Positions 5,978-48,521 of a DNA stretch of 64,000 nucleotides are shown in pieces. The stretch is from Burkholderiales bacterium. GTDB lineage: Bacteria > Pseudomonadota > Gammaproteobacteria > Burkholderiales > SG8-41. The DNA is taken from the NCBI GenBank assembly GCA_019634975.1, contig JAHCAI010000002.1, positions 372,001 through 436,000 of the forward strand, written 5' to 3'. The stretch's first letter is position 1; every line of letters begins with the position of its first letter. The notes under the pieces were generated by a model. The model ran no database searches. It saw only the letters and a list, made by a program, of their open reading frames with translations, and was not told the DNA's origin. The position numbers and the translations under genes are program-made.

Positions 5978-6268
5978 ATGCCGATTTACGAGTATCGATG
6001 CCAGGCGTGCGGGTTCCAGAAGGAATTCCTGCAACGCATCAGTGATGCGCCGTTGACCGAGTGTCCGGAATGCCGCAAGAACACGCTCAGCAAGATGGTG
6101 ACTGCTGCCGGCTTCCAGCTGAAGGGCAGCGGATGGTACGCAACCGATTTCCGCGACAAGGGCGGCAAGCCGGCCACGGATGCCGGGAAATCGGGAGACG
6201 GTGCCAAGAAGGATGAATCCAAGGCCGAGGCTGCCTGCGGCGCCGGAGCCTGTCCCGCCTGCAACTGA
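5978..6268 (+). CDS. FmdB family zinc-ribbon protein
   Basis: A 96-residue protein beginning MPIYEYRCQACG, with a second CPEC pair near residue 33, forming the FmdB/CxxC_CxxC_SSSS zinc ribbon. The rest is a charged lysine/alanine tail that ends with extra cysteines (ACGAGACPACN). The family was named as a putative regulator in methylotrophs, but its role is not well established. It heads the conserved betaproteobacterial order fmdB - DUF502 - aspS. ATG 5978 is preferred because the family always begins MPxYEYxC. Confidence 0.93.
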   Translation: MPIYEYRCQACGFQKEFLQRISDAPLTECPECRKNTLSKMVTAAGFQLKGSGWYATDFRDKGGKPATDAGKSGDGAKKDESKAEAACGAGACPACN

Positions 6269-6321
6269 CCCTTGCGGAACGCGCCTGCGGCTGAGCGCCG
6301 CGGCGGCCGTTGTCCGGATGC

Positions 6322-6348
6322 GCATGCCCGGCGATTTGCCGGGCATGC
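6322..6348. repeat. Perfect 11-bp inverted repeat between fmdB and DUF502
   Basis: GCATGCCCGGC and its complement are separated by a 5-base loop. No T-run follows, so it is not a classic terminator. It may be a processing or pausing hairpin within the operon, or a REP-like unit. Confidence 0.4.
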
Positions 6349-6368
6349 CGCGTACTGCCTGAAGATCC

Positions 6369-7016
6369 ATGTTCAAGAACACTTCCATCAAAAGCTATTT
6401 CATCACCGGCCTGCTGATCTGGGTGCCGCTGGTGATCACGCTGTGGGTGCTCAACCTGCTCGTCGGCATGATGGATCAGAGCCTGCAGTTGCTGCCGAGC
6501 GCACTCCTGACGGAAAACTGGCTCGGCGTGCATGTGCCCGGCCTCGGCGTGATCCTGACGCTGCTGATCGTGTTCTCCACCGGCGTGCTCGCAGCGAACA
6601 TCATCGGCCAGAGGCTGGTGCTGTTCTGGGAGGGCATCCTCGCCCGGATTCCGGTCGTCAACACCATCTACAACAGCGTCAAACAGGTCAGCGATACCCT
6701 GTTCTCCGGCACGGGCCACGCATTCCGCAAGGTGCTGCTGGTGCGCTATCCGCATCCGCAGGCATGGTCGCTCGCTTTCCAGACCAACGTGCCCGTCGAA
6801 GTGGGTGTGCGCCTGCCCGAGGATTATGTTGCGGTGTTCATCCCGACCACACCCAGCCCGGTCAACGGCTTTTATTTTTATGTGCGGCGGGAGGATGTCA
6901 TCGAGCTCGACATGTCGGTGGATGCCGCGTTCAAGTACATCGTGTCCATGGGGGTGGTGGCGCCGACCGGCAGCAACGGCAACGGTGCCCCGTCCAAGGC
7001 GCCGATATCGAAATAA
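6369..7016 (+). CDS. DUF502 family membrane protein
   Basis: A 215-residue membrane protein of the DUF502 family. Two hydrophobic segments are visible (about residues 8-30 and 58-80), followed by a soluble domain containing GRIPVVNTIYNSVKQ-like and SPVNGFYFYVRREDV stretches typical of the family. The function is unknown. It lies between fmdB and aspS on the same strand, with 100 and 22 bases of spacing. The ending PSKAPISK is low complexity. Confidence 0.9.
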   Translation: MFKNTSIKSYFITGLLIWVPLVITLWVLNLLVGMMDQSLQLLPSALLTENWLGVHVPGLGVILTLLIVFSTGVLAANIIGQRLVLFWEGILARIPVVNTIYNSVKQVSDTLFSGTGHAFRKVLLVRYPHPQAWSLAFQTNVPVEVGVRLPEDYVAVFIPTTPSPVNGFYFYVRREDVIELDMSVDAAFKYIVSMGVVAPTGSNGNGAPSKAPISK

Positions 7017-7020
7017 TTTT

Positions 7021-7040
7021 GTTTAAAATCAAATACTTAT
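7021..7040 (+). repeat. AT-rich TTAAAATCAA motif before aspS
   Basis: A strongly AT-rich stretch with the core TTAAAATCAA followed by TACTTAT, running directly into the aspS start codon. No Shine-Dalgarno sequence separates it from the ATG. The same core recurs at 23351-23375, 45367-45386 and 59829-59848. Confidence 0.5.
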
Positions 7041-8823
7041 GTCTATGCGCAGCCATTACTGCGGGTTGGTCGACCGCAAACTCCTCGGCCATACCGTAAG
7101 CCTCTGCGGCTGGGTGCACCGTCGCCGCGACCATGGCGGCGTCATCTTCATCGACCTGCGCGATCGCGAAGGCCTGGTGCAGATCGTCTGCGACCCGGAC
7201 CGGGCGGAAACCTTTGCCGCGGCCGACAGCCTGCGCAACGAGTTCGTGATCCGCGTCGAGGGCAAGGTGCGGGAGCGTCCCGCCGGCACCGTCAATGCCA
7301 ACCTCGTCAGCGGCGAGATCGAGGTGCTCGCGACGGCGCTGGAAGTTCTCAACCCTTCGCAGACGCCGCCGTTCATGATGGACGACGAGCAGCTGTCGGA
7401 AAACGTGCGCCTGCAGTACCGCTTCCTCGACCTGCGCCGCCCGCAGATGCAGGGCCACCTGCGGCTGCGCCACCGCGCTGCGCGCGCGGTGCGCAACTAT
7501 CTCGATGACAACGGCTTCATCGACGTCGAGACGCCGATGCTCTACAAGTCGACGCCGGAGGGCGCGCGCGAGTTCCTGGTGCCCTCGCGCATGCATGACG
7601 GCCAGTTCTATGCCCTGCCGCAGTCGCCGCAGCTGTTCAAGCAGCTGCTGATGGTGGCCGGCTACGACCGCTATTACCAGATCGTCAAATGTTTCCGCGA
7701 CGAGGATCTGCGCGCCGATCGCCAGCCCGAGTTCACGCAGATCGACATCGAGACTTCATTCCTCGGCGAACGCGAGATCCAGGACCTGATGGAAGGCCTG
7801 ATAAGGCACCTGTTCAAGCAGGTGCTTGATGTCGACCTCGGCGCGTTTCCCCGCCTGAGCTACGCGGAAGCGATGGCGAAGTACGGTTCGGACAAGCCCG
7901 ACCTGCGCGTGAAGCTCGAGCTGACCGACCTCAGCGACCTGATGGCGCAGGTCGAGTTCAAGGTGTTCAAGCAGGCGATTGCGCTGAAGGACGGCAAGGT
8001 CGTCGCGCTGCGCGTGCCCGGCGGCGCCGCGCTGACGCGCAAGGAGATCGACGACTACACCGCCTTCGTCGGCATCTACGGCGCCAAGGGCCTTGCCTAC
8101 ATCAAGGTCAACGACGTGACCCAGCTCAACGAGCAGGGGCTGCAGTCGCCTATCGTCAAGTTCCTGCCGCCGCCTGTGCTGGCCGGCATACTCCAGCGCA
8201 CCGGCGCTGCCAACGGCGACCTGATTTTCTTCGGTGCCGACCGCAAGAAGGTGGTGTGGGACGCGCTGGGCGCCCTGAGGGTCAAGGTTGGCCACGAGAA
8301 AGGCCATGCCGAAGCCGGCTGGAAACCCTGCTGGGTCGTCGATTTCCCGGCCTTCGAGTACGACGAGGAAGCGCAGCGCTGGAACGCCGCGCACCACCCT
8401 TTCACCGCGCCCAAGGACGAGCATGTCGGCTTGCTGGCCAGGGATCCCGGCCAGGTACTGGCCAAGGCCTATGACGTGGCGCTGAACGGCTGGGAAATCG
8501 GCGGCGGCTCGGTGCGCATACACCGTGCCGAGGTGCAGTCGCAGGTGTTCGCCGCGCTGGGCATCACGCCCGAAGACGCGCGCGCCAAGTTCGGCTTCCT
8601 GCTCGATGCGCTGTCCTACGGCGCGCCGCCGCACGGCGGCATCGCCTTCGGGCTGGACCGCATCGTCACGCTGATGACCGGCGCCGAGTCCATCCGCGAG
8701 GTGATCGCCTTCCCCAAGACCCAGCGCGGGCAGGACCTGATGGTGGATGCGCCGACACCGGTGACCGAGCGCCAGCTGCGCGAGCTGCATATCCGCCTGC
8801 GCAACGCCAACCCGGCCACCTAG
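7039..8823 (+). CDS. aspS: Aspartyl-tRNA synthetase
   Basis: AspRS, 594 residues, charges tRNA-Asp (and, in bacteria that lack AsnRS, also tRNA-Asn). The N-terminal OB anticodon-binding domain covers about residues 1-110 ([23 protein letters not shown]). Class II motif 2 ([18 protein letters not shown]) and motif 3 (GIAFGLDR near residue 540) are intact, and the GAD insertion domain characteristic of bacterial AspRS lies between. Length is standard. The start has no obvious ribosome-binding site, only an AT-rich leader. It leads a tight run of RNase, barstar and nudB genes. Confidence 0.97.
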
Positions 8824-33430: not shown

Positions 33431-33525
33431 TGGCGGAAGAGAGTGGGAGTCGAACCCACACAGGACCGCTCGCGGCCCCTACCGGGTTTGAAGTCCGGCC
33501 GCCCCACCGGGAGCGATTCCCTTCC
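33431..33525 (-). tRNA. selC: tRNA-Sec (anticodon UCA)
   Basis: A 95-nt tRNA whose 3' CCA is encoded. The acceptor stem is eight base pairs (GGAAGGGA with TCTCTTCC, one G-U), the variable arm is long, and the anticodon TCA is read from 33491-33489 in GGACTTCAAACCC. The T-arm GTGGGTTCGACTCCCAC is intact. The 8-bp acceptor and long variable arm separate it from ordinary tRNA-Ser. It delivers selenocysteine at UGA with SelB, whose gene is 5.5 kb away. Confidence 0.97.
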
Positions 33526-38072: not shown

Positions 38073-38978
38073 TTACTGCAGGCGTGCGGCGACCGCTTCG
38101 GCGGCGCGCCGCGCATCCGCCATCGCGTCGTCGAGGCTGCCGCCGCAGCCGCTGCGCACCGCGCCGACGGCCCACAGGCCGGGCAGCGCGGTTTCCAGCG
38201 TGTCGGCAGTGAGCAGGCGGCCGGTCGCGTCGCGTTTGACCGAGTCCGGCACGAAGGCGGCGTTGGGTTCGAGTCCGATGTAGGCAAAGACGCCGGCGAC
38301 CGCGAGTTCCTCGCTGCCGGCGGCGGTCTTGATGCGGATTTTTTCGACCACCTGCCCGCCGAGGATGGCCTCGACGCTGCTGCCGAAGCGGACTTCAATC
38401 TTCGGATTGGCCTTCACCTGTTCGACGAAGCGCGGCTGCGCGCGGAACGCGCTGCCGCGGTGGATCAGCAGCACCTTGCCGCAGTAATGGGTCAGCACGT
38501 TCGCTTCCTGCAGCGCCGAATCGCCGCCGCCGACCACGGCGACGGTCTCGTTCTGGAACATCGGGCCGTCGCAGTCGGCGCATTTCGACACGCCGCGGCC
38601 TTCGAATTCGACCTCGCCGGGCACGCCCAGGGTTTTCAGTTTCGCGCCGCTGGCGACGATGACCTGGCGCGCGTGGTAGCGGTTCGCCGCGGTGGTCACC
38701 GTGAAACCGCCGTCGGCGGCGGCGAGAGCGGTCACCTCCTCGGGAATGCTGGTGACGCCGGCATCGGCGTTGGCTCCGGTCATTTCGGAAGCGAAGGCGG
38801 CGCCGCCGGCTTCGCCCCCGGCGGGCGCGGGGTCGAGTTCGTTGACGTTGAGGACTAGGCCGCCGAACAGCTGCTGCTCGAAGCTGGCGGTGCTGAGGCC
38901 TTTTTGGGCGAGCAGGCCGGCGGCGGTGAGGCCGGCAACGCCTTCGCCGATGATGATGACGTCAAAGGAATTGGACAT
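38073..38978 (-). CDS. Thioredoxin-reductase-like FAD/NADPH oxidoreductase
   Basis: A 301-residue two-domain flavoprotein of the TrxR type. The FAD-binding start IIIGEGVAGLTAAGLLAQKG, the redox pair CADC in GVSKCADCDGP near residue 132, and the NADPH site VAVVGGGDSALQEA are present. The usual C-terminal FAD-binding GD is replaced (AVGAVRSG instead of AGDVR-like). It starts 15 bases after selB, so selA, selB and this gene likely share a transcript. That suggests, but does not prove, a role in reducing the selenoprotein. No in-frame UGA is present in it. Confidence 0.86.
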   Translation of the reverse strand: MSNSFDVIIIGEGVAGLTAAGLLAQKGLSTASFEQQLFGGLVLNVNELDPAPAGGEAGGAAFASEMTGANADAGVTSIPEEVTALAAADGGFTVTTAANRYHARQVIVASGAKLKTLGVPGEVEFEGRGVSKCADCDGPMFQNETVAVVGGGDSALQEANVLTHYCGKVLLIHRGSAFRAQPRFVEQVKANPKIEVRFGSSVEAILGGQVVEKIRIKTAAGSEELAVAGVFAYIGLEPNAAFVPDSVKRDATGRLLTADTLETALPGLWAVGAVRSGCGGSLDDAMADARRAAEAVAARLQ

Positions 38979-38993: not shown

Positions 38994-41015
38994 TCAGTAA
39001 CGTTTGTTGCGGAAGGGGGGCCGCTGCTGCGGTTTTCCCGCGGCCGGTTTCTGCGGCTGGGTTTTGGCGACGGTGCCCGGAGGGGGCGGCGGCGCCGGAT
39101 CGGCGGCACCGAGGATCGGCGCGAAGTCCTTGCGCATCTTGCGCGCGTCGCCGATGCGCTGGGTGATCGCCAGGCCGTCGAGGGTTTCGAGGATCTCGAT
39201 CGCCAGTGTGCGGCCGATGCCAATGGCGTCGCGGTACTGCGCGGCGGTGTACAGGCCGTTGGGCTGCTTTTCCGAAACCGCTTTCGCGGTGGCGGCGAGC
39301 ACCGCCATCGTCGACTTCAGGTAGAAGCGGTCACTGCCGACGCGGTAGACATTGCCCGCCTTCATCTGGCGGTAGAGGAAGTCCTTGAGGATCGCGTCCT
39401 TCAGCTTCAGCTGCGGCGCAAGCTCGCGCAGCGTCGGCGGATTGAAGCCCGCCGCGGCGAGGGCCGGCTGCACGGTTTCCCACAGCCGCGCGTCGGCACT
39501 GTTGGCGGTGGTGTCATGGCCGGGCTTGCGCAGCAGCGAGCTGTGGATTTCGACTCGTTTCGCATCGGCGAGCGCGCGCAGTAACTGGCCGAAACCTTCG
39601 GCATCGAGTTCCGGGGCCAGTTCCTTGCGCAGGGTCTCGATTTCGATGCCCGGTGCCTGCGGCTGCGCCCGGTGGAAGGCCTCGACTTTTGCGGCAACCG
39701 CGTCTTCGAGGGTACTGATTCTGGCGGCGGTGACGCCGATGCGCTTTTCCTTGCCCAGCGCCACCAGGCCGGCGGCGGCGCAGGCTTCAGCCGCGATTTC
39801 GGGCAGCAGGTTGAACGCGGCTTCGAAGTGGCCAAGGTCGACCGGGCGTTTGGGGTCGGCGGCGAGCGCTGCGAGCGCTTCCTTGTGGCCGGCGGACTCC
39901 AGCGCGGCGAGCACCGCGGCGCGCGCCTTGCCGCGGCGGGAGGCCGGCGGCAGCGGGTCGATGACGAGGCCGCCGCCCAAGGTGCGCAGCGCCGACTGGT
40001 CGCGCAGGATGAAGCGGTCGCCGTGCAGCGCCGACACCGTCTCGTCGAGCACCAGCCGGGCGATGCCGTTGCCGCCCGGCGGCAGGGCTTCGCCCCGGCG
40101 CAGCGACACGCGCGCCGTGACATCGGCGGTGGCGAGGTGCAGGTGCACCGGTGTCCAGTGTTTCAGCGGCCGGCTTTCGCCGGGCAGCATCGACAGGCGC
40201 ACGTCGAGCAGCTGCGTCGGGCGGTGGATGGCTTCGGCCATCACCCAGTCGCCGCGGCGCACCGATTCGACGTCGGCGCCGGTCAGGTTCAGCGCACAGC
40301 GCTCGCCGGCCTGCGCCTGTTCGGCGGATTTGCCGTGGATCTGGATACCGCGCACGCGGACTTCGCGTCCCGCAGGTGAAATCACCAGCCGGTCGCCGGT
40401 CCTGACACGGCCGTTGAACACGGTGCCGGTGACCACGGTGCCGCTGCCGGCAATGCTGAAGGCGCGGTCGATGGCGTAGCGCAGGTGCTGGCCTGTCGCG
40501 CTGCGCCCGCCGCGGGCTTCGGCCTCGCGCAGCAGCAGGGCCTTCAGTTCGGCGATGCCGCTGCCGCTGACCGCGGAGACCGGCAGCAGCGGCGCACGGG
40601 CGAGCAGCGTCGGCGCGAGCAGTGCCTGGACCTGCGCCCGAACCTGTTCGATGCGTGCGGCATCGACGCGGTCGGTCTTGGTGATGGCCACGGCGCCGCG
40701 CGGGATGCGCAGCAGGTCGAGGATCTGCAGGTGTTCGACGGTCTGCGGCATCACGCCGTCGTCGGCGGCGACGATCAGCAATGCGTAGTCGATGCCGGAG
40801 ACACCGGCGAGCATGTTGCGCACGAAACGTTCGTGGCCGGGCACATCGACAAAACCGATCAGCCCGCCCTGCGGCAGCGGCAGGTAGGCGAAGCCGAGGT
40901 CGATTGAAATGCCTCGCGCCTTTTCCTCCGGCAGGCGGTCGGTATCGGTGCCGGTGAGGGTTTTGACCAGCAGTGTCTTGCCGTGGTCGATGTGGCCTGC
41001 GGTGGCGACGATCAT
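38994..41015 (-). CDS. selB: Selenocysteine-specific elongation factor
   Basis: SelB, 673 residues, is the GTPase that brings Sec-tRNA to UGA codons marked by a SECIS hairpin. The G domain shows [16 protein letters not shown] and the TKTD base-recognition motif. EF-Tu-like beta-barrels follow (to about residue 370), and four C-terminal winged-helix units that bind the mRNA hairpin extend to about residue 640. It ends with a basic proline-rich tail (PPFRNKRY). It is downstream of selA with 204 bases of repeat-rich spacer and upstream of the TrxR-like gene. Confidence 0.96.
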
Positions 41016-41047: not shown

Positions 41048-41221
41048 TTAGCCACAGAGGACACAGAGAACTCAGAGGACTTCAAGATCTTTCGTCGTCA
41101 TGCCGGTGAAAGCCGGCACCCAGTGAAACGTTAGTGGCAGAGAATGCATCGCCTGGACCCCGGCTTTCGCCGGGGTTACGGCCTTTGGTTTCTCTCTGTG
41201 ATCTCTGTGCCCTCTGTGGCT
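41048..41221. repeat. Nested inverted-repeat element between selA and selB
   Basis: Outer arms AGCCACAGAGGACACAGAG (41048-41066) and its imperfect complement (41203-41221) enclose an inner pair, TCATGCCGG...AAGCCGGCACCCAG and CTGGACCCCGGCTTTCGCCGG. The two layers look like two kinds of dispersed repeat, one inside the other. selA and selB usually lie close together, so the unit probably separated them. Confidence 0.6.
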
Positions 41222-42617
41222 AGGTTTTTAGTTTTTTCAACTGCAATACAAATTCATCTTCATGATCCAGACAGCGCAGGTCGAGTTTCAGCGTGCCGTC
41301 GCGGATGTGGCCGATCACCGGCACCGGCAGCGCACGCAGCGCCGCCGCCAGTTTGTTGAGGTTGCCTTTTCTGCCTGCGGGCGTGATCGCGAGGCCGCTG
41401 CTGGGCAGGGCATCGACCGGCAGTGCGCCGCTGCCGATCTGCGATTTGCAGTCGCAGATTTCGACGCGCCAGTTCCCGCCGAGTGCCGCTGTCAGTGCCG
41501 GCAGCACCCGCGAGGCTTGTGCCGCGATGTCCGCGGCCGGGCGTGTGAGCAGCCGCAGCGCCGGCAGTTCCTCGCGCAGCCTTTCCGGATGCAGGTAGAG
41601 CCGCAGCACGGCGTCGAGTGCGGTCAGCGTCAGCTTGTCCAGACGCAGCGCGCGCTTCATCGGGTTTTTCGCGATGCGTGCCATCAGGTCCCTGCGCCCG
41701 ACGAGAAGCCCGGCCTGCGGCCCGCCGAGCAGCTTGTCGCCGCTGAAAGTGACGACATCGGCGCCATGGGCCAGTGTCTCGTGCGGTGTCGGCTCGTGCG
41801 GCAGGCCGTAGTCCTCGAGGTTGACCAGCGTGCCGCTGCCGAGGTCGACGATGAAGGGCAGCCCGTGCTCGTGCGCGAGTTTCGCGAGTTCCGGCTCGGG
41901 CACCGCGGCGGTGAAACCCTGCACCACGTAGTTGCTGGTGTGGACTTTCATGATTGCCGCAGTGCGCGGGGTGATCGCCTCGGCGAAGTCTTTCGGGTGG
42001 GTGCGGTTGGTGGTGCCGACCTCGACCAGCTTCACTCCGGCGCGGGCCATGATGTCGGGAATGCGGAAGGCGCCGCCGATCTCGATCAGTTCGCCGCGCG
42101 ACACCAGCACTTCGCGCCTGAGCGCCAGCGTGTTCAGCGCGAGGTAAACCGCCGCGGCATTGTTGTTGACCGCCACCGCCTTGTCGGCACCGGTGAGCTC
42201 TTTCAGCCAGCGCTCGACATGGCTGTCGCGCTCGCCGCGTGTGCCGCCGTCGAGGTCGAACTCCAGGTTGACCGGGCGCGTCATGGCTTCCGCCACGGCG
42301 CGCGCGGCACTGTCAGGCATCACCGCGCGGCCGAGATTGGTGTGCAGCACGGTGCCGGTGAGGTTGAACACCGGTTTCAGCGAAGGGGCCGAGGAGCGCT
42401 CAAGCGCCGCGGCGCAGGACTGCAGGAAACGTGCTTCGTCGTAGGGAACGGCTTCGGTGTCCGTCAGCCGATCGCGCTCGGCATCGAGGGCCCCGCGCAG
42501 AATGCGGGTGACGCGACTGCGGCCATGCTCGGCGAGCAGGCCCGCAACGGCGGGGCTGCCAAGCAGGCGATCCAGCGAGGGCAACGCGCGACGCGCGGCT
42601 GCGGCGGGATTCACCAT
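41220..42617 (-). CDS. selA: L-seryl-tRNA(Sec) selenium transferase
   Basis: SelA, 465 residues, is a PLP enzyme that turns Ser-tRNA(Sec) into Sec-tRNA(Sec) using selenophosphate. The PLP lysine lies in VVTFSGDKLLGGPQAGLLVG near residue 290. Family stretches include VFNLTGTVLHTNLGRA near residue 85, NNNAAAVYLAL and VEVGTTNRTHPKDF. The length is standard. It is the first gene of the selA-selB-TrxR-like run. SelD, which supplies selenophosphate, is not in this window. Confidence 0.97.
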   Translation of the reverse strand: MVNPAAAARRALPSLDRLLGSPAVAGLLAEHGRSRVTRILRGALDAERDRLTDTEAVPYDEARFLQSCAAALERSSAPSLKPVFNLTGTVLHTNLGRAVMPDSAARAVAEAMTRPVNLEFDLDGGTRGERDSHVERWLKELTGADKAVAVNNNAAAVYLALNTLALRREVLVSRGELIEIGGAFRIPDIMARAGVKLVEVGTTNRTHPKDFAEAITPRTAAIMKVHTSNYVVQGFTAAVPEPELAKLAHEHGLPFIVDLGSGTLVNLEDYGLPHEPTPHETLAHGADVVTFSGDKLLGGPQAGLLVGRRDLMARIAKNPMKRALRLDKLTLTALDAVLRLYLHPERLREELPALRLLTRPAADIAAQASRVLPALTAALGGNWRVEICDCKSQIGSGALPVDALPSSGLAITPAGRKGNLNKLAAALRALPVPVIGHIRDGTLKLDLRCLDHEDEFVLQLKKLKT

Positions 42618-45388: not shown

Positions 45389-46159
45389 TTATTCCCAAAG
45401 GCGTTCCGGCAACGGCAACCCTGCGAGTTGCTCCGCTGTCAGTGGCCGGTCGGGCGTGATGCCGACCCTCTCCAGCACTGCGGCGAGCTGCCGGCCGTGT
45501 TGAGCGCTGTGCCAGGTCGAGCGCTCGAAAAGCATGTGGATCGGCTGCATGCCGAAGAAGGTCTTGATCTTCTGCTGGCAGGATTTGTCCCCCAGTTTGT
45601 TCCACCAGTTCTCGAGGCGCGCAATGACGGTGTCACCGTAACGCGCGATTTCCTCCCCGGTCATGAAGGTGCCGTCCTTGGGCGGCACATTGGCGAGCTG
45701 GACCGCGTATTCGACGCCGTCTTCGACCGATTCGAGGTAGGCCTCGGCGATGCGGAAAATGTGATGGCACATCAGGCGGATCGAGCGGTCCCGGTTGGGA
45801 ATCACGCGCTCGGTCAGTTGCGCGTCGGGCAGCTGGCGCATCAGCCGCTGCGCGGTGCGCAGCACCGTGACCCAGCGCTTGATCAGCTCTTCCGGCGGCA
45901 GCGGCTTGTGGCCGGTACCCTGGAGGCCGACGAACTCGGCGACATCCTCGAGGTTCTGGCCGAACACGAACTGTTCGCCCTTGGCGACGACCGGAACATT
46001 GCGCACGCCGAATTTGAGCAGGCGCTCGCGGCCCTGCGGGTCGTTCAGCACGTCGATGGCGACGAAATCGATCTGTTTACGCGAAAGAAACTCTTTCGCC
46101 CGGAGACAGCTGCTTCACCCGGGCTGGGTGAACAGGATGAATTGCTCGTTTGCGCCCAT
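45389..46159 (-). CDS. Selenoprotein: glutaredoxin-like domain fused to DinB-like domain
   Basis: A 256-residue protein with an in-frame UGA at codon 15 (46117-46115), read as selenocysteine. The N-terminal part, QFILFTQPGU-SSC-LRAKEFLS, is a thioredoxin-fold active site with U-x-x-C in place of C-x-x-C. It continues VRNVPVVAKG with the cis-proline near residue 56 and FVFGQNLEDVAEFVG, typical of glutaredoxins. From about residue 85 a DinB-like four-helix domain follows with candidate metal ligands at H132/H133 and in WHSAQH (H217, H221). An AGAGGT site precedes ATG 46159. Without read-through the gene would start at GTG 46051 and lose the active site. The SECIS-like hairpin, selC, selA and selB support recoding. 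Confidence 0.88.
46081..46117 (-). promoter_or_regulatory. Bacterial SECIS-like hairpin with its UGA
   Basis: On the minus strand the UGA at 46117-46115 is followed after 15 bases by GCGAAAGA-GTT-TCTTTCGC (46099-46081), a perfect 8-bp stem with a GUU loop. Bacterial SECIS hairpins sit directly after the UGA with a short loop that starts with G or has G in its first two positions, and the loop here starts with G about 23 bases from the UGA. Confidence 0.75.
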
Positions 46160-46283: not shown

Positions 46284-46892
46284 ATGATGAAGCTTATCGG
46301 GACGGCCACCAGTCCTTATACCCGCAAGGTGCGCGTTGTGCTGGCGGAAAAACGCATGGAGTGCGAGTTTGCCATCGATGCGCCGAATACCGAAGGCAGC
46401 ACGGTCGCGCAGTTCAACCCGCTTGGCAAGATCCCGGTGCTGGTGCTCGATGACGAGAGCACCCTTTTTGATTCGAGGGTGATTGTCGAGTATCTCGACA
46501 ACGCCAGTCCGGGCAACCGGCTGATTCCGGAGGAAAAGCGCCCGCGGATCCAGGTGCGGCGCTGGGAGGCGCTGGCCGACGGCTGCGCCGATGCGGCAGT
46601 TGCCGTGGTCATGGAGAAGCGCCGTCCCGCCGCCCAGCAGTCGCCGGAATGGATCTCCCGTCAGCAGGCCAAGGTCGACCGCGCGCTGCAGGTGATGGCC
46701 GACGACCTCGCGGCGAAAAACTGGTGCACCGGAGACTTTTTCACGCTCGCCGACATTGCTGTCGGCTGCTGTCTGGGCTGGATTGAGCTGCGGCTGCCGG
46801 ATTTGCCCTGGCGCCGCAACCACCCGAATCTTGCGCGGCTCGCCGACAAGCTTGCCCAACGCCAGTCTTTCAGGGACAGCGCACCAGCCTGA
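46284..46892 (+). CDS. Glutathione S-transferase family protein
   Basis: A 202-residue GST. The N-terminal thioredoxin fold shows MMKLIGTATSPYTRKVRVVLAEK, then NPLGKIPVLVLDDESTLFDSRVIVEYLD with the cis-proline and the SNAIL-like DSR. The helical C-terminal domain runs from about residue 85. The serine in TSPYTRK may be the catalytic residue. It resembles the YibF group. Two in-tandem ATGs (46284, 46287) exist, the first chosen for its spacing to AAGAAA. It is divergent from the selenoprotein gene by 124 bases; both relate to thiol chemistry. Confidence 0.92.
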   Translation: MMKLIGTATSPYTRKVRVVLAEKRMECEFAIDAPNTEGSTVAQFNPLGKIPVLVLDDESTLFDSRVIVEYLDNASPGNRLIPEEKRPRIQVRRWEALADGCADAAVAVVMEKRRPAAQQSPEWISRQQAKVDRALQVMADDLAAKNWCTGDFFTLADIAVGCCLGWIELRLPDLPWRRNHPNLARLADKLAQRQSFRDSAPA

Positions 46893-46909: not shown

Positions 46910-48058
46910 CTAGCGTGGGCCACCCACCGCGCCGGGCGGGCAGCCCGCGTCTTGCGGGGTGAACTGCGCGGGGCGTGCTGATTCGATTATGCCGCCGCCG
47001 ATGCAGACCCTGCTCTCATAGATCACGACAGACTGGCCGGGTGTCACTGCCCACTGGTTTTCGGCGAATTCGACGACGCAGCGCTCGCGGTTTGCCACGG
47101 ACAGCGAGCAGGCGGCGTCTTTCTGGCGGTAACGGGTTTTCGCGCCGTACACCCATTGGGTGTGCGGCGGTTCGCCGCTGATCCAGTTCAGGTTGACGGC
47201 TGTCAGTTCATCGGACAGCAGCATGGGGTGTTCATGCCCCTGCACCACGACCAGCCGGTTGTTCGCCATGTCCTTGCGCGCGACATACCAGGCCTCGCCG
47301 TCGCCGTTGCGGGTACCCCCGATGCCGAGGCCCTGGCGCTGACCCAGCGTGTAGAACATCAGGCCCATGTGCTGGCCGACTTTCATGCCCTCCGCGGTCA
47401 CGATATCCCCGGGGTTGGAGGGCAGGTAGCGGTTGAGGAATTCGCGGAACGGCCGCTCGCCGATGAAACAGATCCCGGTGGAGTCTTTCTTGTCGTGGTT
47501 GGCCAGCCCTTCGCGGCGGGCGATTTCGCGCACGTCGCGTTTGTACAGCGTCCCCAGCGGAAACATGGTTTTGGCGAGCTGCTGCTGGTTGAGGCGGTAG
47601 AGAAAGTAGCTTTGGTCCTTGCTGCCGTCCTCGGCCTTCAGCAGCTGGTGCAGACCGTCGACCTCGCGCACCTGCGCATAATGCCCGGTGGCGATGCGGT
47701 CGGCGCCGAGGCTCATCGCGTGGTCGAGAAAACACTTGAACTTGATCTCGGCATTGCACAGCACATCGGGGTTGGGCGTGCGCCCGGCCCGGTATTCGCT
47801 GAGGAATTCGCTGAACACGCGGTCCTTGTATTCCGTGCTGAAGTTGACCGCCTCGATCTCGATCCCGATGCGGTCGGCTACGGCAACCGCGTCAACCAGG
47901 TCCTGGCGGGAGGTGCAGTGTTCGTCGCTGTCGTCGTCCTCCCAGTTCTTCATGAACAGGCCGGTGACGTCATAACCTTGTTGCTTCAGCAGCAGGGCGG
48001 CGACCGCGGAATCGACACCCCCGGACAGGCCGACGACTATTTTCTGTTTGCGGGTCAT
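46910..48058 (-). CDS. mnmA: tRNA-specific 2-thiouridylase
   Basis: MnmA, 382 residues, adds sulfur to U34 of tRNAs for Glu, Gln and Lys. The PP-loop [19 protein letters not shown] is at residues 6-24. The two catalytic cysteines are in [12 protein letters not shown] near residue 98 and [13 protein letters not shown] near residue 197. The start MTRKQK at 48058 follows nudJ by 4 bases. The protein has a C-terminal tail ([12 protein letters not shown]...) beyond the usual GGGIIE end, about 20 residues long and proline/glycine-rich. Confidence 0.95.
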
Positions 48059-48062
48059 GGTT

Positions 48063-48521
48063 TTACCAATGGTGGTGCAGCAGTTGCAGCGGGTAGCGTC
48101 GCCCGTCAATGTAGTCTTCGACGCATTGCATCAGCAGGGGGCTGCGGTGCCGTTCGCGGCAGGCGCGGATGTCGGCCGCAGGCATCCACAACGCGCGCAG
48201 GATGCCGGTGTCCAGCGGACGGTCTTCCGGAGTGGAGACTTCCCCGGTGAAGGCGAAACGCAGGTAGGTGACCGGTGAGGCGGGCTTGCGGTACTGGTAG
48301 ATGCCGACCAGTGCGGTCGGGTTGAAATGCCGGGCCGATTCTTCGAGGGTTTCTCGGATCACGGCCTCGAGCAGCGATTCGCCCTCTTCGAGGTGGCCTG
48401 CCGGCTGGTTGTAGCGGACGCCGTCCGCGGTCTCTTCCTCGACCAGCAGGAATCCGCCATTGCGTTCAACGACGGCGGCGACCGTGACATTGGGTTTCCA
48501 CTGATTTGTTTCATCGGCCAT
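48063..48521 (-). CDS. nudJ: Nudix hydrolase (NudJ-like phosphatase)
   Basis: A 152-residue Nudix enzyme. The Nudix box is [22 protein letters not shown] near residue 42. The N-terminal [26 protein letters not shown] and the middle [11 protein letters not shown] match NudJ, which hydrolyses nucleoside di- and triphosphates and thiamine pyrophosphates. It is directly upstream of mnmA with a 4-base gap, the conserved arrangement. Length is typical. Confidence 0.93.

Follow-up and report, generated by a model that had tools for sequence, protein, structure and literature searches.

In a 64,000-nucleotide (nt) stretch of DNA from a Burkholderiales bacterium (positions 372,001 to 436,000 of contig JAHCAI010000002.1, assembly GCA_019634975.1; hereafter "the window"), the minus-strand frame 46159-45389 is almost certainly a single gene whose internal UGA is predicted to encode selenocysteine (Sec, U), i.e. 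the gene of a selenoprotein. The encoded protein fuses a glutaredoxin-like domain to a DinB-like domain. Because the UGA and a hairpin following it are conserved in dozens of relatives, we predict from these sequence comparisons a new selenoprotein family. The features discussed below are collected in Table 1.

Table 1. Features of the fusion gene and of the Sec-related genes in the window
Feature	Position	Strand	Remarks
Sec-glutaredoxin/DinB fusion gene	45389..46159	-	ATG 46159; 256 codons + TAA 45391-45389
In-frame UGA, codon 15, predicted selenocysteine	46115..46117	-	homologous genes: UGA 78/87, Cys 9/87
SECIS-like hairpin CGAAAGA-GUU-UCUUUCG	46082..46098	-	loop starts 23 nt after UGA
Glutaredoxin/NrdH-like domain, residues 4-80	45920..46150	-	U15-S-S-C18 and P56 of NVPVV
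DinB/S-transferase-like four-helix domain, residues 85-241	45437..45907	-	
Histidines of the DinB half	His133 45763-45761, His217 45511-45509, His221 45499-45497	-	
mnmA	46910..48109	-	constant 5' neighbour (gene order in relatives)
selA, L-seryl-tRNA(Sec) selenium transferase	41220..42617	-	TIGR00474 576 bits, cut-off 267.9
selB, Sec-specific elongation factor	38994..41015	-	TIGR00475 429.5 bits, cut-off 242.25
Thioredoxin-reductase-like flavoprotein, CADC motif, proposed (inferred) electron donor	38073..38978	-	TIGR01292 230.9 bits
tRNA-Sec (TCA anticodon)	33435..33525	-	75.9 bits, gathering 47

In-frame UGA and its Cys counterparts

When TGA is read as U, the frame 46159-45392 translates into 256 residues with a sole U at position 15, within QFILFTQPG-U-SSC (residues 6-18). 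With ordinary stop codons, the same frame is called from GTG 46051 and gives 220 aa: gene callers shorten the gene because the internal UGA is taken for a stop. The databases bear the mark of this. A protein search returned 3165 homologues, the best 120 of which all start just behind the predicted active site; the longest of these has 238 residues and none has the codon-15 motif. Where names are given among these 120, they are hypothetical protein, DinB family protein and, once, glutaredoxin domain-containing protein. A widespread protein is thus on file without its key residue. An earlier interpretation made from the letters alone (the sequence-only reading) had described the frame from ATG 46159 to TAA 45391 as an unannotated selenoprotein, with UGA in place of the first cysteine (Cys) of a C-x-x-C motif. 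Translation confirmed the frame, and aligned homologues have either UGA or Cys at that position.

We searched for the gene, reading through stops, in a close set of 61 genomes, that of the window plus 60 relatives. Among the 61 rows obtained, 49 contain exactly one TGA and 12 none; the latter comprise one full-length Cys homologue (G052), six C-terminal pieces short of codon 15 and five weak redoxin-only matches. Considering the matches that span codon 15 at E<=1e-20, UGA is present in 49 out of 50 and Cys in the other one. An order-wide set of 399 genomes gave a match in 36 of them and 52 rows in all, of which 43 carry one TGA, 8 are full-length without TGA (Cys in all eight) and 1 is a C-terminal piece. 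Pooling both sets with one class-level genome and the named contigs, we obtained 87 distinct genes, some of them closely related, with UGA at codon 15 in 78, TGC or TGT (Cys) in 9 and neither TAA nor TAG in any. An in-frame UGA kept among relatives, with Cys as its sole substitute, is what characterizes a bacterial selenoprotein. The sequence-only reading had mentioned homologues with CSSC at this place, and they do exist: GC[ST]SC was found at the active site in 120/120 relatives among the matches listed for a Cys homologue. Homologues lacking a redox residue at position 15, which it had named as evidence to the contrary, were seen neither among these nor among the 87 genes.

The lowest identity to the window protein among UGA genes is 27% (G024:C40). 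In a tree of 98 rows with position 15 masked, a single Sec/Cys change suffices (support 97/81; unrooted tree, L062 being a very long branch). Cys forms are present in named Paraburkholderia, Ramlibacter, Caballeronia and Variovorax records. A class-wide search (E<=1e-20) gave matches in only 2 of 369 genomes, namely that of the window and one with a Cys form; the Sec form is therefore confined to one order, as far as sampled. Moreover, 61 UGA genes all encode Pro13 and Gly14 while using four codons for each, so it is the protein rather than the DNA that is conserved 5' of the UGA.

Two Pfam models match above their cut-offs: Glutaredoxin at residues 8-65 (E 8.9e-13) and DinB_2 at residues 99-225 (E 8.1e-7). 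The AlphaFold model (pLDDT 95, pTM 0.91) predicts a redoxin fold followed by a DinB four-helix fold. The first half has the features of the Glutaredoxin/NrdH group, namely a thioredoxin fold, an active-site pair and a conserved proline ahead of the third strand. Members of this group take electrons from glutathione (Grx) or from thioredoxin reductase (NrdH), a point on which the gene neighbours described below bear. Position 15 (U/C), C18 and P56 are invariant in 31 aligned sequences, P56 being the proline of NVPVV in which a continuation of the glutaredoxin fold had been recognized from the sequence. The fold matches come from a second look at those of Foldseek, beyond whose list other families may exist. 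When the protein is aligned with 7c10 and 3zij, residue 15 coincides with the first Cys of their active sites. The DinB-like half proposed at the same time also agrees with the Pfam match and with the four-helix bundle of the model. Its three histidines are conserved, H133 being invariant and H217 and H221 present in at least 90% of the sequences (alignments of 31 and of 67), in line with the three-histidine rule H...HxxxH that the accessible text of PMC5815605 gives for the DinB/STL superfamily.

SECIS-like hairpin and Sec gene neighbourhood

The segment CGAAAGAGUUUCUUUCG, at 19 to 35 nt past the first base of the UGA, is predicted to pair into a 7-bp stem with a GUU loop, resembling a Sec insertion sequence (SECIS). 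This 17-nt hairpin is identical in 74 of the 78 UGA genes; three show an A-U to G-U replacement and one a loop change. The limits given for bacterial SECIS elements in the accessible part of PMC13188914 are a loop of 3-9 nt with G in the first two positions, a stem of 4-16 bp, a distance of 16-37 nt from the UGA and a minimum free energy <= -7.5. Loop, stem and spacing lie within these limits in 77/77 UGA genes (7-bp stem in all, loop GUU in 76 and GUA in 1, spacing 23 nt), and so does the energy of 76 of the 77 folded 57-nt segments. To compare codon use, we took 40 representatives with <80% nucleotide identity, a sample outside which the three AAG genes fall: the hairpin's five codons are fully fixed where the residue is kept, whereas 36 other conserved-residue columns (UGA excluded) have 33-82% codon agreement. 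Nine Cys genes allow 2-4 of the 7 pairs, and five more, all plasmid-borne, allow 2-5. The case for the hairpin rests on these frozen synonymous sites and on the decay in Cys genes. No further copy was found within 2 mismatches in the same genome, so the hairpin reveals no further selenoproteins.

Besides selA, selB and tRNA-Sec, all in the window, the genome holds selD on another contig, and selD carries one in-frame UGA; the whole set expected of a Sec-decoding genome is therefore present. In the SelD of the window's genome (L118), the UGA lies in GGG-U-GCK, and the fold behind it is unlike the hairpin of the fusion gene. Of 21 genomes searched, 16 have a SelD match, and in 13 of these it contains one UGA. 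A match to the formate dehydrogenase alpha model (TIGR01591) at E<=1e-60 was obtained in 20 of these 21 genomes; it is above the cut-off in 15, the window's own not being among those 15, and no row from the 21 genomes has an in-frame stop. SelB scores above cut-off in 35/37 UGA carriers vs. 5/24 other genomes of the 61-genome set. Order-wide, it does so in 26/28 UGA carriers, 3/8 Cys carriers and 74/363 others (UGA carriers vs. the rest: Fisher p ~9e-15, related genomes being counted as independent).

The gene order mnmA - fusion gene - selA - selB - thioredoxin-reductase-like flavoprotein is recurrent. At 28 named loci, mnmA is 5' of the gene in all 28, and selA and selB follow 3' on the same strand in 22; the six loci without them extend at most ~4 kb past the fusion gene. 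The flavoprotein gene comes after selB in 19 of the 22 loci, the remaining three ending at or in selB, and its C-A-D-C motif is kept in 18/18 long matches. At L063, which belongs to a different family within the order, about a dozen bases separate the fusion gene from the start of the selA match. Altogether, the Sec/Cys pairing, the SECIS-like hairpin, the adjoining Sec machinery and the predicted structure back the selenoprotein proposed by the sequence-only reading.

Other genes adjoin the fusion gene or its homologues. A divergent glutathione S-transferase gene, at 46293-46892 (+) in the window, is found in 21 of the 28 loci, those of nearer relatives. Two divergent UGA paralogues, L062:1535-2299 (27% identity) and L099 at ~1020-1790 (29%), have lost HxxxH and kept the hairpin, which is exact in L099 and differs by one loop base in L062. 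Judging from sequence, they form a Sec subfamily whose second half has changed; at E<=0.001, Pfam gave no match for the DinB half in L062 or in the Cys protein of plasmid pNK82. A second UGA paralogue (L064:1940-2467, and at the same place in L104, L107, L109, L110 and L111) starts at the end of an upstream RidA-like frame, which suggests translational coupling. Another group of UGA paralogues (L070, L100, L102 and L103) adjoins a CoA-transferase-like gene, accompanied by a cupin-like gene in L070, L100 and L103; these genes and the RidA-like frame were named by eye. On a plasmid of Roseomonas marmotae (L127), a Cys homologue is flanked on one side by an isochorismatase-family gene and on the other by AtzG-like and amidase genes; an amidase gene adjoins the window's fusion gene too. 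At seven Cys loci, the only recurring neighbours, besides the gene and its antisense frames, are TctC-type genes and one MmgE/PrpD-like pair (by eye). Finally, the Cys gene of L126 reads TAAAAGAGTTTCTTACG at the hairpin position, 3 changes off, a possible relic or mere codon use.

Proposed function and alternatives

The reading that we consider somewhat more probable than all others together, with much less confidence in its chemical details, is that of a Sec redoxin joined to a three-histidine DinB domain, likely a metal-dependent thiol transferase supplied with electrons by the redoxin half. Electrons from NADPH would reach the Sec15/Cys18 pair by way of the flavoprotein whose gene comes after selB. 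A metal held at the His133/His217/His221 site would activate a low-molecular-weight thiol (e.g. glutathione) against an electrophile. Glutathione is the likely low-molecular-weight thiol in this order. The thiol adduct or mixed disulphide arising at the DinB half would next be reduced by the Sec redoxin, which the flavoprotein would recharge with NADPH; conjugation and release would thus both be the work of one polypeptide. We infer Sec insertion, metal binding, the thiol, the electron donor and the reaction from these computational results. The best independent hint of the electron donor comes from plasmid pNK82 of Caballeronia sp. NK8 (L126; its PLSDB record is without annotation), where a Cys homologue (5998-6765) and a thioredoxin reductase gene scoring above its cut-off (6845-7855) are 79 nt apart.

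Several observations weigh against this reading or parts of it. The flavoprotein of the window stays under the TIGR01292 cut-off (343.45), and among 12 Cys loci, only that of pNK82 has a reductase match of either kind. The divergent UGA paralogues L062 and L099 are without the HxxxH of the metal site. SelB is not over its cut-off in four UGA carriers, G453 and G750 in the order-wide set (84 and 83% complete) and G029 and G036 among the relatives (91 and 80%). In the window itself, an amidase gene and an opposed TctC-type gene separate the fusion gene from selA, and a terminator-like hairpin follows the stop (45363-45342; 1 found vs. 1.3 in shuffles); for these reasons, we claim a conserved cluster and not a single transcript. 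As for the SECIS-like hairpin, its loss with Cys is not clean throughout, since the Cys genes L126 and L129 retain 5 of 7 pairs and L129 forms another A/U-rich hairpin in the same stretch. Covariation is weak evidence too, as the hairpin barely varies.

Among the alternatives, a redox switch, in which oxidation of the U15-C18 pair would turn the metal enzyme of the DinB half on or off, is unlikely but survives best. The sequence-only reading had suggested redox control of a DinB-type thiol or metal enzyme, which would be plausible. The two domains belong to one chain, modelled together with a high pTM, and both active-site positions are invariant in the 31 aligned sequences. However, the reductase-like gene travelling with the fusion gene fits turnover better, and a slow switch seldom requires Sec. 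We prefer a relay that passes electrons into a thiol transferase to a pure redox switch.

A role in selenium metabolism, the protein being a thiol-dependent carrier or reductase that would convert selenodiglutathione-like species into selenide for SelD, appears slightly less likely still. It would account for the constant place beside mnmA, selA and selB and accords with SelD itself being so often a UGA gene, but 5 of the 8 genomes with a Cys homologue are without SelB over cut-off, and several genomes have extra UGA copies on contigs or at places apart from the first. We give a little less credit again to the detoxification of a metal or metalloid (mercury, arsenic) or of an organohalide, Sec acting as a ligand or as a nucleophile, a role that has been proposed for UXX-star proteins. 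The glutaredoxin half does match UXX-star models weakly, and the accessible part of PMC13188914 suggests metal-binding roles for proteins of this type, but every UXX-star score is under its cut-off, and in the six Cys loci whose neighbours were read, none of these was named or recognized as a mer or ars gene. That the UGA is a true stop, with translation from GTG 46051 and the 14 upstream codons as leader or decay, is highly improbable: it would suit the starts called past the UGA and the length of the best 120 of the 3165 proteins, but not the invariance of Pro13 and Gly14 despite four codons each, nor the Cys homologues that read straight through. A start at GTG 46051 or a leader peptide was discarded because of this conservation 5' of the UGA, and a defence role was rejected, with no PADLOC match.

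Returning to the thiol transferase reading, we tentatively propose, at somewhat less than even chances, that the fusion proteins form a new selenoprotein family, each a metal-dependent thiol transferase with a Sec redoxin as an integral part: a self-reducing conjugation enzyme that travels in a sel cluster with its own reductase. Together with SelD, this protein may be the chief reason for keeping the Sec code in this uncultured Burkholderiales lineage, none of whose formate-dehydrogenase-like matches has an in-frame UGA. The matched Sec and Cys forms make it possible to study what advantage selenium brings to a thiol transferase, and the constancy of the hairpin makes it usable as a probe.

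Comparison with known systems

The 119 selenoprotein families tabulated in 2026, in the accessible part of PMC13188914, do not include the pairing of Sec with DinB. No NCBIfam model scores above cut-off for the fusion protein or for two Cys homologues, and a full-text literature search for selenoprotein and DinB, outside whose scope most subscription journals lie, found two papers, neither of them related (judged by title and abstract). The closest systems share one half or the general plan. The selenoprotein glutaredoxin (Grx, PF00462, UxxC) has the same glutaredoxin fold with Sec first in the motif, but its entry in Table 1 of PMC13188914, as far as accessible, holds PF00462 only, whereas in the present protein the domain makes up only the N-terminal third of a longer, fused chain. 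The best-scoring models for the redoxin half are YruB, UXX-star and NrdH. UXX-star (seleno)proteins (NF041212 and kin) are also glutaredoxin-like with Sec first in the motif; the fusion protein differs by its second Cys and its DinB domain, and membership in NF041212 was rejected (42.3 bits vs. a cut-off of 66). Members of the DinB/STL superfamily (BstA-H, mycothiol S-transferase, maleylpyruvate isomerase) share the four-helix fold and the H...HxxxH triad but, unlike the fusion protein, are mentioned without selenium or a redoxin domain in the accessible text of PMC5815605. Glutathione S-transferases, whose chains are among the fold-search matches, follow the same plan of a thioredoxin fold and then a helical bundle. 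Glutaredoxin as a selenoprotein domain and DinB as a superfamily are already known; what appears to be new is their pairing with Sec.
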